Shown here: positions 8,725-37,989 of the stretch, piece after piece
Layout: each line of letters opens with the position of its first letter
Numbering within the stretch: position 1 is the first letter of the stretch
Origin: Cytophagales bacterium
GTDB lineage: Bacteria; Bacteroidota; Bacteroidia; Cytophagales; Microscillaceae
NCBI GenBank assembly: GCA_013298075.1
Contig: JAAFJG010000045.1
Coordinates: forward strand, 1-37,989
Direction: 5' to 3'
Length of the DNA: 37,989 bases
Notes under the pieces: model-generated
What the model was told of the DNA's origin: nothing
Databases searched by the model: none
What the model saw: only the letters and a program-made list of their open reading frames with translations
Translations under genes and position numbers: made by a program

Positions 8725-8862
8725 GTTACTGTAATTAAAAGTGTGGAAAATTATTTTGTGTTAAAATAATCACAATTTTTTAACAAATAAAGTCAATTTA
8801 TTTGCATAAAATTACAAGTAAACCTCCTATTATTTGTTTACCACACCAAAAATTACACTAAC
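8725..8862. mobile_element. MITE-like element D, copy 1 (uninterrupted)
   Basis: The 138-bp element has imperfect terminal inverted repeats of 22 bp (17 matching): GTTACTGTAATT... at 8725-8746 and its counterpart at 8841-8862. It has no coding capacity. An interior segment containing AACAAATAAAGTCAATTTA and ATTACAAGTAAACCTCC recurs, split by other elements, at 30512-31031. The left end recurs as 27 identical bases at 37766-37792. Confidence 0.75.
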
Positions 8863-9340: not shown

Positions 9341-9364
9341 AGTCCCTAATTTGTCATACTCATT

Positions 9365-9485
9365 AGTATTTTTTAAATGAAAGAGATTTTAGCACACAGA
9401 TAACACGGATTTAGCGGATTAATACGGATTTTTCTCGAATTTTTAATGATTTTTGTCAATTTTTGGCTACCATTTAAAAAACTCT
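9365..9485. mobile_element. Repeat element E, copy 1
   Basis: The 121-bp element is bounded by inverted repeats AGTATTTTTTAAATG and CATTTAAAAAACTCT. Its core contains AGCACACAGATAACACGGAT and a GCGGATTAATACGGATTTTT stretch. Near-identical copies lie at 21578-21709 (same orientation) and 22061-22190 (inverted); core fragments are at 12949-12980 and 35432-35500. I recall similar 'cacggatttagcggatt' sequences as frequent intergenic repeats in Bacteroidota genomes. The rest of 9486-9582 shows no feature. Confidence 0.8.
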
Positions 9486-9582
9486 ATTATCATAAATTCT
9501 TCGTTTCTTTGCCATTTTTTGTTCCTTTTTATATCAAAATTTATCGTTTTAATGATTTTTTTCACCAACTTTATTTTCAAAA

Positions 9583-12878: not shown

Positions 12879-12980
12879 TTTGAATTGCCTCTAAATTTAT
12901 CTGAATTGCCTCCAGATTTATCTGGAGGATTTAAAATGACAAAAATTTTAGCACACGGATAACGCGGATTAAGCGGATTT
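12879..12980. repeat. Palindromic 21-bp unit (two copies) and element E core fragment
   Basis: Two tandem 21-bp units of the TGAATTGCCTCCAGATTTATC type (the first degenerate) end in the perfect palindrome CCTCCAGATTTATCTGGAGG at 12909-12928. Next, 12949-12980 repeats the AGCACACGGATAACGCGGAT core of element E without its ends. The hairpin could act as a transcription terminator for the histidine kinase gene that ends at 13004. Confidence 0.75.
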
Positions 12981-15928: not shown

Positions 15929-15982
15929 TTAAAAAAAGTAAAAAAAAATCGAGCTGGTTTTGTAGCAAAGGTTGTGTTATTA

Positions 15983-16145
15983 GGGAGCATCTAAAAAATA
16001 AATTACCCACTCAAAAAAACTTATTTTTAGTTCCCTCACCGCTGGGGAGGGTTAGGGTGGGGCTTTTTGCAAAATTATGCCCCACCCCAGCCCTCCCCAA
16101 AGGTGAGGGAGTTTTTTTTAGGTATATTATTTTTTATTTAGTCCC
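15983..16145. mobile_element. MITE-like element A, copy 1
   Basis: This 163-bp element begins GGGAGCATCTAAAAAATAA and ends with a counterpart ATTATTTTTTATTTAGTCCC, with TTA directly repeated outside both ends (15980-15982 and 16146-16148). Inside, GGGGAGGGTTAGGGTGGGG and CCCCACCCCAGCCCTCCCC form a long, unusually GC-rich imperfect hairpin. It codes for nothing. It lies just upstream of the kinase start and may influence that promoter. Confidence 0.85.
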
Positions 16146-16195
16146 TTATTTATCATGCAAAGTTAGATTTTTTTGTTTTATTTGTATATTAAATA

Positions 16196-17617: not shown

Positions 17618-17660
17618 GATTTCTTTATTCTTATTTTAAAAATAATTTTTTGAATTTTAT

Positions 17661-17689
17661 CTTGAATTGCCTCCAGATTTATCTGGAGG
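17661..17689. repeat. Palindromic repeat between convergent genes
   Basis: One 21-bp-type unit with the perfect palindrome at 17670-17689 (CCTCCAGATTTATCTGGAGG), followed by TTTTATT. It lies between the stops of two convergent genes and could serve as their terminator. Confidence 0.7.
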
Positions 17690-17719
17690 TTTTATTAAAA
17701 TCTTTGTCATATTTTTTTA

Positions 17720-20550: not shown

Positions 20551-20780
20551 TTAGAAAATTTATGCAGAAAATAATTTTTTTTTGAAATATATTTTTTGAA
20601 TTGCCTCCAGATTTATCTTGAATTGTTTATAGATTTATCTTGAATTGCCTCCAGATTTATCTTGAATTGCCTCCAGATTTATCTGGAGGATAATATAAAA
20701 TTCAATTGTTTGCCTTAGCCGAAAATCTCTCCGTTTTTGAAATTGATATTTTTGTATATTTTGAAAATAAATGGCTATTT
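20551..20780. repeat. Element G, partial copy, with 22-bp tandem array
   Basis: The sequence is close to the left arm of the longer element at 30091-30500, including TATGCAGAAAATAATTTTTT, ATTCAATTGTTTGCC and CGAAAATCTCTCCGTTTTT. It is interrupted by four tandem 22-bp units TTGAATTGCCTCCAGATTTATC (20596-20683, unit 2 degenerate), which end in the palindrome CCTCCAGATTTATCTGGAGG. The other copy has one unit at that point. The remainder, to 20829, has no feature. Confidence 0.8.
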
Positions 20781-21555: not shown

Positions 21556-21577
21556 TTTTTTGATACGGATAAATATT

Positions 21578-21709
21578 AGTATTTTTTAAATGAAAGAGAT
21601 TTTAGCACACAGATAACACGGATTTAGCGGATTAATACCGATTTTTTTTCTTTTTTCTCGAATTTTTAATGATTTTTGTCAATTTTTGGCTACCATTTAA
21701 AAAACTCTA
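21578..21709. mobile_element. Repeat element E, copy 2
   Basis: The 132-bp copy of the element at 9365-9485 differs mainly by an 11-bp T/C-rich addition after the GGATTAATACCGATT core. It is inverted relative to copy 3 at 22061-22190, so the two flank a 351-bp interval. Its end lies directly before the TPR gene start. Confidence 0.85.
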
Positions 21710-21792
21710 TTTCAGTTTTGGACAAGATATGTTAAAAAATAAAATGATGATACGAAGTTTCTATAATTTTGAGAATGCAAAATTTTACTAAT

Positions 21793-21880: not shown

Positions 21881-22060
21881 CTTACCATTTTTATGTGAAA
21901 AGTATTTGTTAATTTTAATATAAGTGTAGCCTTCGATATCACCTCCAAAAGTGTAGTTGGTTTGAGTGAGAATACATATTTTTATTATCACCACTCAAAC
22001 TATGTGCAAAGTTATAAATTTATTGATTGATAATGAAAAAAATTGGCAAAAAAATAATAA
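21881..22060 (-). other. Possible transcribed relic with promoter between two E copies
   Basis: TAACTTTG on the minus strand at 22005-22012 is an exact -7 match. A hairpin GGTTTGAGTG/CACTCAAAC (21959-22000) follows. A short minus-strand frame reads TNYTFGGDIEGYTYIKINKY before running into the degenerate F element and stopping. It may be a fragment of an interrupted gene or an untranslated RNA. The overlapping 78-codon frame at 21712-21948 looks like chance. Confidence 0.3.
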
Positions 22061-22190
22061 AGTTTTATTAAATGGTAGCCAAAGATTGACAAAAATCATT
22101 AAAAATTCAAGAAAAAAGAAAAAAATTCCGTATTAATCCGCTAAATCCGTGTTATCTGTGTGCTAAAATCTCTTTCATTTAAAAAATACT
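22061..22190. mobile_element. Repeat element E, copy 3 (inverted)
   Basis: Reverse-complement copy of the elements at 9365-9485 and 21578-21709, containing the core as AATCCGCTAAATCCGTGTTA and bounded by TTTTATTAAATGG and CATTTAAAAAATACT. It keeps the T/C-rich addition seen in copy 2, so copies 2 and 3 are closer to each other than to copy 1. Confidence 0.85.
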
Positions 22191-22195
22191 ATTGT

Positions 22196-22283
22196 CCTCC
22201 AGATAAATCTGGAGGCAATTCAGATAAATCTGGAGGCAATTCAGATAAATCTGGAGGCAATTCAGATAAATCTGGAGGCAATT
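22196..22283. repeat. Tandem array of four 21-bp palindromic units
   Basis: Four perfect units of CAGATAAATCTGGAGGCAATT occupy 22200-22283, preceded by CCTC that completes the first palindrome. They are the reverse complement of units found at 12879, 17661, 20596 and 30140. Because the unit is 21 bp, a plus-strand frame reads DKSGGNS repeatedly. The surrounding frame (22160-22372) has no other sign of being a gene. Confidence 0.9.
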
Positions 22284-22342
22284 CAAAATATATGCTTCTT
22301 AGAAAATTATCATGGAATGCTTTTTTGTATCTACATTCTAAT

Positions 22343-25718: not shown

Positions 25719-25936
25719 ACAATTTTTGATTTATTTTAGTTTAATTTGATAGCATTTTTTTGTTTTTATAAATATTTTTGGTTATTAGTAAATTTGTTGC
25801 AATTTTTTATCTTAGATTTAAGATAAAAGGTTTTTAGGTAATTTGTGTGGACAATGAAAATATTTTTTTTGCACAAATTTTTTGAAAACTATATTTTATG
25901 AGTAGTAGTTTTTGAGTTGTCAATGTTGATGACTTA

Positions 25937-26057
25937 GGTATCTTCTAAAAAATATAATACCCGTTTAAAAGCGTTTTTTATCGGAAAAATTCCTTCAAGG
26001 TTTTTAAAACCTTGAAGGAATCGTACTCGGTGGGTATATTATTTGCTACTTAGTCCC
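25937..26057. mobile_element. MITE-like element A, copy 2 (alternative core)
   Basis: The 121-bp element has family A ends, GGTATCTTCTAAAAAATATA and GGGTATATTATTTGCTACTTAGTCCC, and TTA directly repeated outside (25934-25936 and 26058-26060). Its interior differs completely from copy 1: a hairpin TTCCTTCAAGGTTTTTAAAA CCTTGAAGGAA. The same ends carrying different cores suggests mobilisation by one transposase in trans. Confidence 0.8.
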
Positions 26058-26094
26058 TTAACAAACTGAAAAAATAACATTTAAAAAAACAAAA

Positions 26095-30090: not shown

Positions 30091-30500
30091 TTAGGAAATT
30101 TGTGCAGAAAATGATTTTTTTTTGAAATGTATTTTTTTATATTATCCTACAGATTTATCTGGAGAATAATATAAAATTCAATTGTTTGCCCTAGCCGAAA
30201 ATCTCTCCGTTTTTCAAATTGATATTTTTCTATATTTTCAAAATAAATGGCTGTTTTTGAAGGAGGTGTAAAAAAAAATTATTTTGTTGATTTTATTTAA
30301 ATTTTATTGGTTCATTGGGAAATTATTGCGGATATAATTTTCTTCTGTATGAATAGAAATGGCATTTATTTAAAAAATATCAATTTGAAAAGTACGGAGA
30401 TTTTGGCTAAAGCCAAGGATTGAATTTTATTATTATCCTCCAGATAAAGCTGGAGGCAATTTAAAAAACGTATTTCAAATTTTTTTTCCGCACAAACCCC
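30091..30500. repeat. Element G: long inverted repeat
   Basis: The left arm (30091-30250) and right arm (30357-30500) are imperfect reverse complements over about 150 bp. Paired landmarks are TTTGTGCAGAAAA with TTTTCCGCACAAA, the CAGATTTATCTGGAG and CCTCCAGATAAAGCTGGAGG palindromes, and TCAAATTGATATTTTT with its complement. The central 105 bp is unique. A partial left arm occurs at 20551-20780. It contains no gene. Confidence 0.75.
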
Positions 30501-30538
30501 TTAAGAACCATAACTTTTTAACAAATAAAGTCAATTTA

Positions 30539-30838
30539 GGGACTAAGTAGAAAATATTATACCCAAAAAAACTCCCTCACCTTTGGGGAGGGCTGGGGTC
30601 AGTGTTGTTAAATTCTTTTCTTTTTAACAAGTAAAATAGAAATTAACTTGTATAATATTCTGTAAAAAATCTATAATTTTTTGAAAATCTTATAGATTTG
30701 GCAAATTATATTTTGATTTGTAAAATAATTTACCTGACAAATATTAGAATTTAATAACACTGACCCTAACCCTCCTCAGCGGTGAGGGAACTAAAAATAG
30801 GTTTTTTTGAGTGGGTAGTTTATTTTTTATATGCTCCC
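30539..30838. mobile_element. MITE-like element A, copy 3 (inverted, inserted in D)
   Basis: The 300-bp element begins GGGACTAAGTAG and ends ATGCTCCC with TTA on both sides (30536-30538 and 30839-30841). Its arms match element A1 in reverse, including ACTCCCTCACCTTTGGGGAG and CCTCAGCGGTGAGGGAACTA, but the centre is replaced by the B sequence. The undisturbed D1 shows one TTA at the insertion point, which supports a 3-bp duplication. Confidence 0.85.
30598..30766. mobile_element. Element B: central module of A3
   Basis: The sequence is bounded by inverted repeats GTCAGTGTTGTTAAATTCT and its near complement AGAATTTAATAACACTGAC. Inside is a hairpin AATCTATAA/TTATAGATT. It takes the place of the GCATAATTTTGCAAAAAG centre of A1, so either it inserted with local loss, or A elements exchange centres. 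Confidence 0.65.
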
Positions 30839-30900
30839 TTATTTGTATAAAATTACAAGTAAACCTCCTATTATTTATTTACCACCTAAAAAATTAGGTA

Positions 30901-37792: not shown

Positions 37793-37865
37793 GTATTTTT
37801 TACATCAAAATATAGTGTAATTTCTAAAAAATATTTTAAAATTTCATATAAAACGGAGGCATTAA

Positions 37866-37989
37866 GGGAGCATATAAAAAATAAACTACCCACTCAAAAA
37901 AACTTATTTTTAGTTCCCTCACCGCTGGGGAGGGTTAGGGTGGGGCTTTTTAGTCAAATTATGCCCCACCCCAGCCCTCCCCAAAGGTG
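37866..37989. mobile_element. MITE-like element A, copy 4 (cut by window end)
   Basis: It begins GGGAGCATATAAAAAATAAA and matches A1 almost throughout, including the GGGGAGGGTTAGGGTGGGG arm and its partner CCCCACCCCAGCCCTCCCC. The loop is slightly longer than in A1. The right end lies beyond the window. Confidence 0.85.

Follow-up and report, generated by a model that had tools for sequence, protein, structure and literature searches.

The window analysed here is the whole of contig C94, a stretch of 37,989 nt from the draft genome of a Cytophagales bacterium (4.71 Mb in 153 contigs, 97.9% complete). It contains four copies of a short repeated sequence, here named element A, whose starts (15983, 25937, 30539 and 37866) are exactly those given in an earlier note on this DNA. 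Copy 1 (15983–16145, plus strand) is complete and 163 bp long, with a left end at 15983–16007, a right end at 16121–16145 and a palindromic interior. It is flanked by a TTA target duplication, at 15980–15982 on the left and 16146–16148 on the right (no strand assigned), and its own start lies 54 bp past that of a gene for a protein with phytochrome, PAS and histidine-kinase domains. Copy 2 (25937–26057, plus strand) belongs to a 121-bp class, of which 11 complete copies (121–122 bp) were examined, and lies between TTA at 25934–25936 and 26058–26060. Copy 3 (30539–30838, minus strand) spans 300 bp, which include a nested element, here named element B, and is flanked by TTA at 30536–30538 and 30839–30841. 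Copy 4 (37866–37989, plus strand) is truncated by the contig end and preceded by TAA at 37863–37865. The TTA on both sides of the three complete copies, as described in the note, was therefore confirmed.

The two ends of copy 1 have the sequences GGGAGCATCTAAAAAATAAATTACC and GGGACTAAATAAAAAATAATATACC, the second written inward from the opposite side. Copies 1 and 4 have their interior in common. In copy 2 the right end is as in the other copies, but the left tip is GGTATC and the interior is an unrelated CCTTCAAGG/CCTTGAAGG hairpin, so the ends GGGA(GC/CT)...ACC that had been proposed for all four copies do not describe the left tip of copy 2. All four copies are located outside the listed open reading frames (ATG start, at least 90 aa), in agreement with the claim that they encode no protein, and no Rfam family was found in the window. 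The description of a transposon-derived, non-coding family with 3-bp TTA duplications, whose parent transposase is absent from the window, was thus upheld. Element A is short, non-coding and multi-copy and has terminal inverted repeats, and is in kind a family of miniature inverted-repeat transposable elements (MITEs). According to the portions of the literature available, bacterial MITEs such as NEMIS, RUP and that of Anabaena sp. 90 (and Nezha, by name only) are non-coding, 100–350 bp long and foldable, with inverted ends; element A is like them in these respects. Neither its end sequence nor a link to the ISAzo13 family is mentioned in those portions of the NEMIS, RUP and Anabaena sp. 90 descriptions.

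The window also contains other repeats. Units of 21–22 bp around CCTCCAGATTTATCTGGAGG, partly in tandem and with GAATTG spacers, were found at 22179–22304, 20590–20701, 12895–12940, 17656–17701 and 30132–30177. An interspersed repeat of 53–149 bp with TTTTTGTCAATTTTTGGCTACC has direct and inverted copies at 9361–9488, 21575–21725 and 22043–22194. A repeat with GTGTCCCAAATTCGTTGCA, located just beyond 30890 and also at host loci L075 and L101, is apparently another MITE-like family; its window and L075 copies include a ACAGACGTTG...CAACGTCTGT hairpin. The contig starts with a 124-bp perfect direct repeat (1–124 and 359–482, 358 bp from start to start).

Copy number and target sites in the host genome

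A search of the whole host genome with the element ends, as suggested in the note, placed the family far above four copies. At up to 3 mismatches, the left-end pattern was found at 132 places (67 and 65 by strand) and the right-end pattern at 123 (55 and 68 by strand); the reversed left- and right-end patterns, used as controls, were found at 0 places each. Among the matches listed (first 100 places per pattern), 63 nearest inward pairs were formed, 60 of them left–right pairs of 100–470 bp. The commonest lengths of the latter were 296–301 bp (28 pairs) and 153–165 bp (15 pairs), the rest measuring 100–104, 132, 195, 259, 334–336 and 469–470 bp. The other three pairs, one right–right pair of 396 bp and two of more than 6 kb, were not IS-sized either.

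For 40 of the 77 unpaired ends the inner side was taken (at most 3 kb, and shorter where a contig ended), and about half of these had a diverged partner within ~350 bp. No transposase gene bounded by element A ends was found among 14 single ends printed and the open frames of seven loci; the loci with a single end proved to be decayed copies, contig edges, or copies broken up by another element. The full-length element with a transposase between the same ends, for which the note had proposed a search, was not encountered in the host among the first 100 places per pattern.

Median pairwise identity was 0.90 in the 158–166-bp class (n = 16), 0.95 in the 120–123-bp class (n = 11) and 0.91 in the 294–301-bp class (n = 10), and the highest values within length classes were near 0.99. 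The impression that the copies are nearly identical and recently active holds for some pairs, which are ~99% alike, but the medians are 90–95% and many ends are decayed. Two genomes of the same genus, one of them only 79% complete, gave no match to the end patterns (at most 1 mismatch) or to the element, and the exact right end was found 0 times in the scanned named genomes. This version of the sequence is therefore confined to the host lineage, as far as sampled, and its absence from the two same-genus genomes suggests a set that was expanded in the host lineage or kept only by it.

Copies are present in both orientations, TAA being TTA on the opposite strand. Identical 3-bp flanks were found at 39 of the 46 complete host copies examined (both ends within 4 mismatches), with 21 TTA, 17 TAA and 1 TCA, as compared with 3.9% of 200,000 random intervals for any identical triplet. 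TTA/TAA duplications accounted for 38 of the 46, versus 0.26% of the random intervals. This tabulation of flanking triplets, also proposed in the note, extends the duplication to most of the copies examined, the exceptions being the TCA copy and seven copies with unmatched flanks (four TAA/TTA, two TTA/TAA and one TCA/CAA).

A paralogous empty site of copy 3 is located in the window at 8765–8855 (plus strand), where both flanks of the copy (36 bp aligned on the left and 58 bp on the right) join at a single TTA (8798–8800) with no element between them. This is what an insertion with 3-bp duplication, or a precise excision, would leave. Together, the duplications and the empty site show that element A enters TTA sites with duplication of 3 bp.

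Recurrence of the ends and the candidate transposase

A relaxed motif of the ends, TWAGGGANNNNNTARAAAATAWNNTACC, was found in at least 64 stretches of other genomes. The taxa among the matches listed include Saprospiraceae and other Bacteroidota (Arcicella among them), the cyanobacteria Cyanothece SIO2G6 and Nodosilinea, and several Desulfobacterota such as Desulfonema magnum. Among the same matches, a partner end (at most 5 mismatches, flanks ignored) was located no more than 420 bp away in 40 of the 64 loci, and seven loci are cut near an edge; 34 of the 40 partnered loci have identical flanks, and their lengths peak at 157–160 bp. As the scan demanded TWA-GGGA at one end, only the other end is independent evidence. 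Single matches in Ureibacillus, Chlorobiaceae, Pelagibacteraceae and Marinimicrobia had no partner end among the matches listed, and viral contigs gave 0 matches. In genomes G015 to G022 the relaxed motif (at most 2 mismatches) occurred 124, 1, 213, 44, 76, 17, 148 and 91 times, respectively, and the reversed motif 0 times in each.

By RNA folding energies, most of the complete look-alikes examined form a single long palindrome over their whole length, and their interiors differ between genomes. Since the ends recur while the interiors differ, it is the ends that the genomes have in common. No full-length element was detected in G021 and G022 (100 of 148 and 50 of 91 places, respectively), where one 1-kb pair consisted of two MITEs, nor by eye in D. 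magnum (100 of 124 places), where two gaps of IS size lie between ends of the same kind whose flanks do not match.

The ISAzo13 family makes 3-bp duplications, and for this reason the profile PF07592 was searched. It had matches in four of the nine genomes with the end motif, versus none of 14 control genomes. It had no match in the host, so the copies there look orphaned, nor in four of the eight other genomes with the motif. The D. magnum genome, with 124 end-pattern matches, contains 27 PF07592 matches, of which 18 are full-length and all have the same score, and the family was confirmed as ISAzo13 by NF033519. All 15 of the copies examined are 1374 bp long, with ends GGAATCGGTATTAAATAACTTTCCC and GGAATGAGCATGAAATAATATGCCC, and 14 of the 15 have identical flanks (TAA 8, TAT 3, TTA 3); TAT, in contrast, was not seen at the 46 host copies. 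Eight loci were read from 162 plasmid records with an ISAzo13 protein match, in a search open to any 3-bp duplication, and TTA was the best pair in five of them. Four of these have GG-A...AAATAA ends: GGATCGTGGATTAAATAA in Calothrix, GGATCTGGTAAAAAATAACTTCCC in Methylomonas, GGAACTGTCCCGAAATAACTTCCC in Thiothrix and GGATTTAAGAAAAAATAAGTT in Nostoc. The Streptomyces locus combines TTA with a GGGC end, and in those of Polaromonas, Rhodococcus and Mesorhizobium the best pair was not a clear TTA-GG one.

A score matrix built on 12 AT-rich ISAzo13 ends was applied to 23 chosen MITE ends, all of which scored best with one leading G dropped, a register that had been noticed before it was tested. Compared with shuffles keeping GGGA, 23 of 23 exceeded the 95% value and 19 of 23 the 99% value. 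The non-host elements had each been selected, at one end or both, with the host-derived motif, which leaves the six host ends as the one fully independent test; these six scored 12.7, 10.2, 8.8, 6.4, 4.9 and 4.7, all above the 95% value and three above the 99% value of 7.16. Saprospiraceae ends reached 21.8, and an Arcicella element scored 19.9 at one end and 6.4 at the other. The average of 1644 other genomic TWAGG sites was -12.1, the highest 30 of them (7.4–17.4) being mostly, by eye, diverged members of the family. In a direct count on nine ends, 14–20 of 25 bases agreed with the better-matching D. magnum ISAzo13 end, and at least 14 agreed in ~0.4% of shuffles.

ISAzo13 elements and element A thus have in common a 3-bp duplication, mostly TTA/TAA, inverted terminal repeats and resembling GG-A...AAATAA ends, followed by CCC in D. 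magnum, Methylomonas and Thiothrix. They differ in that ISAzo13 encodes a transposase and its ends begin with GGA (GGGC in Streptomyces), whereas element A encodes nothing and begins with GGGA. No ISAzo13 element with exactly the element A ends was found; element A has one extra G, and the two were never identical. The scores of the host ends point to a parent that is likely an ISAzo13 subgroup with GGGA tips, none of which was seen. Titles and abstract starts of the literature, most subscription papers lying outside this scope, yielded nothing that connects ISAzo13 to MITEs or to the end motif described here.

The note had attributed the duplication to the IS5 superfamily, and a TNA/TWA target with GG ends would indeed also fit some IS5 groups. 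The eukaryotic PIF/Harbinger Tourist MITEs likewise have GG ends and a 3-bp TTA/TAA duplication. An IS5/PIF-Harbinger-like transposase as the mover of element A would also agree with the presence of PF13359 in five of the eight other element-holding genomes, versus one of 14 controls. The host searches covered PF13359, PF13586, PF01609 and PF07592 in a draft that may lack collapsed repeats, and neither PF13359 nor PF13586 was matched. PF01609 had four matches: one IS4, one interrupted IS1634, one fragment below every NCBIfam cut-off (NF041680 scoring highest, ahead of IS4/IS701 models) and a degenerate stretch on contig C77. None had element A ends in the flanking stretch available, which for the two matches within ~125 bp of a contig start leaves one flank barely visible, and an IS5-like parent in the host was rejected. 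The IS5-like loci of other genomes were rejected as partners too, since none of 13 PF13359 loci (10 places) was bounded by element A ends, and D. magnum, G016 and G021 have no PF13359 match. The IS5 attribution was thus not sustained, and such a mover is considered unlikely. In the parts of the sources available, Tourist MITEs are described with a 3-bp duplication (PMC2213677) and the eukaryotic counterpart of ISAzo13 is Zator (PMC5718144). Tourist elements belong to a different transposase superfamily, while the evidence here points to ISAzo13.

ISAzo13 is therefore the best candidate for the mover, the case for movement by its transposase being one of sequence likeness. Element A is a gene-less unit with ~25-bp ends, roughly GGGA-N5-TAAAAAATAA-NN-TACC, and is probably moved in trans by an ISAzo13-family DDE transposase to TTA sites that become duplicated. 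By analogy with the resembling ends, the transposase would bind the ends of the element; the entry of the element into TTA sites with duplication of 3 bp is shown by the flanks and the empty site. Palindromic interiors, seen in most of the complete elements printed, may be tolerated or favoured. The enzyme would have been lost from the host lineage or be missing from the draft, the absence of PF07592 referring to this assembly only.

Interior of element A and nested element B

Folded as single-stranded DNA, copy 1 has a z-score of -8.3, and none of 200 shuffles was as stable. Its interior consists of two 30-nt units in inverted orientation, CCCTCACCGCTGGGGAGGGTTAGGGTGGGG on the plus strand (16033–16062, with a TTA second loop) and CCCTCACCTTTGGGGAGGGCTGGGGTGGGG on the minus strand (16080–16109, with a CTG second loop), which are like the intrastrand triplex motif as defined in PMC4666352. 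Such an inverted pair was also the basis of the interior in the copies read of the two commonest length classes (28 and 15 of the 60 pairs). In the available part of Holder et al. 2015 (PMC4666352), the consensus of the E. coli motif (TM-ECO) is CCCTCNCCCN3-6GGGNGAGGGN3GGGNGAGGG. The strict consensus had 0 matches in the window and 82 host loci, while a shorter variant devised in this analysis matched 33 of these 83 sources. Judging by that part of the source, the published PIT/intrastrand triplex motif and copy 1 both have a C-rich stem, a G-rich stem, a G-rich third strand and a TTA second loop, and two loop types paired in inverted orientation occur in E. coli and in copy 1. The same part reports the E. 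coli motif as unassociated with transposons, unlike the variant described here, which is the interior of a mobile element and falls outside the strict published pattern. The interior thus resembles the design of the intrastrand triplex motif, a kind of palindrome believed to form triple-stranded DNA, rather than its strict consensus.

The strength of this palindrome, and the T-run that follows the hairpin of copy 1 on one strand, would suit old immobile remnants kept for a hairpin function, for example as transcription terminators. Several copies with decayed ends retain an intact core, although these came from loci fetched by similarity to the core. Such remnants would hardly be expected to show clean duplications, an empty site and pairs with as much as 99% identity, nor to be missing from two genomes of the same genus, even if one is only 79% complete, and this explanation is regarded as quite improbable.

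Much the same G-rich core was found without element A ends in G005 and G007, which belong to other genera of the host's family. At two G005 loci (L111 and L122) a similar core lies between different inverted ends, those of L111 being quite different 24-bp ones, TGGTTCTTCAAGGATTTATACGGA. The core, found without these ends and between others, can therefore be regarded as a cargo able to sit in different settings. The same loci, and the retention of the core in copies with decayed ends (found through that core), might suggest that the hairpin itself is the mobile unit (REP/REPIN-like or triplex-motif, with an HUH enzyme) and the outer ends incidental, but the TTA duplication, both orientations and empty site are all found at the outer ends, and the same ends enclose unrelated interiors in copy 2 and in other phyla, making this the least probable explanation, with very little chance of being correct. 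Movement by an ISAzo13-family transposase remains the preferred explanation, and the interior would then be an exchangeable passenger sequence.

Element B, located in the window at 30600–30762 inside copy 3 (163 bp, no strand assigned), has 16-bp ends CAGTGTTRTTAAATTC, as do further copies at L033 (386–546) and L046 (394–555). It is 161–163 bp long, with ends CAGTGTTRTTAARTTC/GAAYTTAAYAACACTG, and occurs within the core of many element A copies. Fourteen copies with both ends were found, one of them of 209 bp. A perfect 10-bp direct repeat flanks five of the 14: three have GGGTTAGGGT on one strand or the other, one has GGGCTGGGGT and one has GGGTTAGGGT shifted by one base. All 14 adjoin the triplex-like motif at, or a few bases from, one place, a target preference seen among loci fetched for holding element A, so that element B may also occur elsewhere. 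A degenerate copy in L063 lies where no triplex-like motif remains. Element B thus seems to be a second MITE, with 10-bp duplications, that repeatedly inserts near one spot of the triplex-like motif. In the ~299-bp class of element A the sequence is GGGTTAGGGT-B-ACCCCAGCCC, with half of either arm present. If each arm had received an element B copy, recombination between the two would give exactly this ~299-bp form, which has since spread in its own right. In L070 and L047, which lie at the edges of C90 and C74 (contigs of the host), a copy of element B is apparently broken up by an IS4-family element (NF033591).

What was not expected of the family is that one end pair extends across phyla and that the cargo is of the triplex type. 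It is possible, though rather doubtful, that one ISAzo13-dependent end pair is a universal chassis across phyla, loaded with any palindrome, reaching at least 100 ends per genome and so providing one of the routes for the dispersal of intrastrand-triplex-type repeats in bacterial genomes. The analysis provides a signature, T[T/A]A-GGGA-N5-TAAAAAATAA-NN-TACC, for MITEs recurring in three or more phyla. These MITEs are thereby linked to ISAzo13, a little-studied family named in just 10 of 5.39 million openly available papers. Element A is moreover a candidate vehicle for triplex-type repeats, and element B is an example of a MITE that seems to target a motif inside a different MITE.
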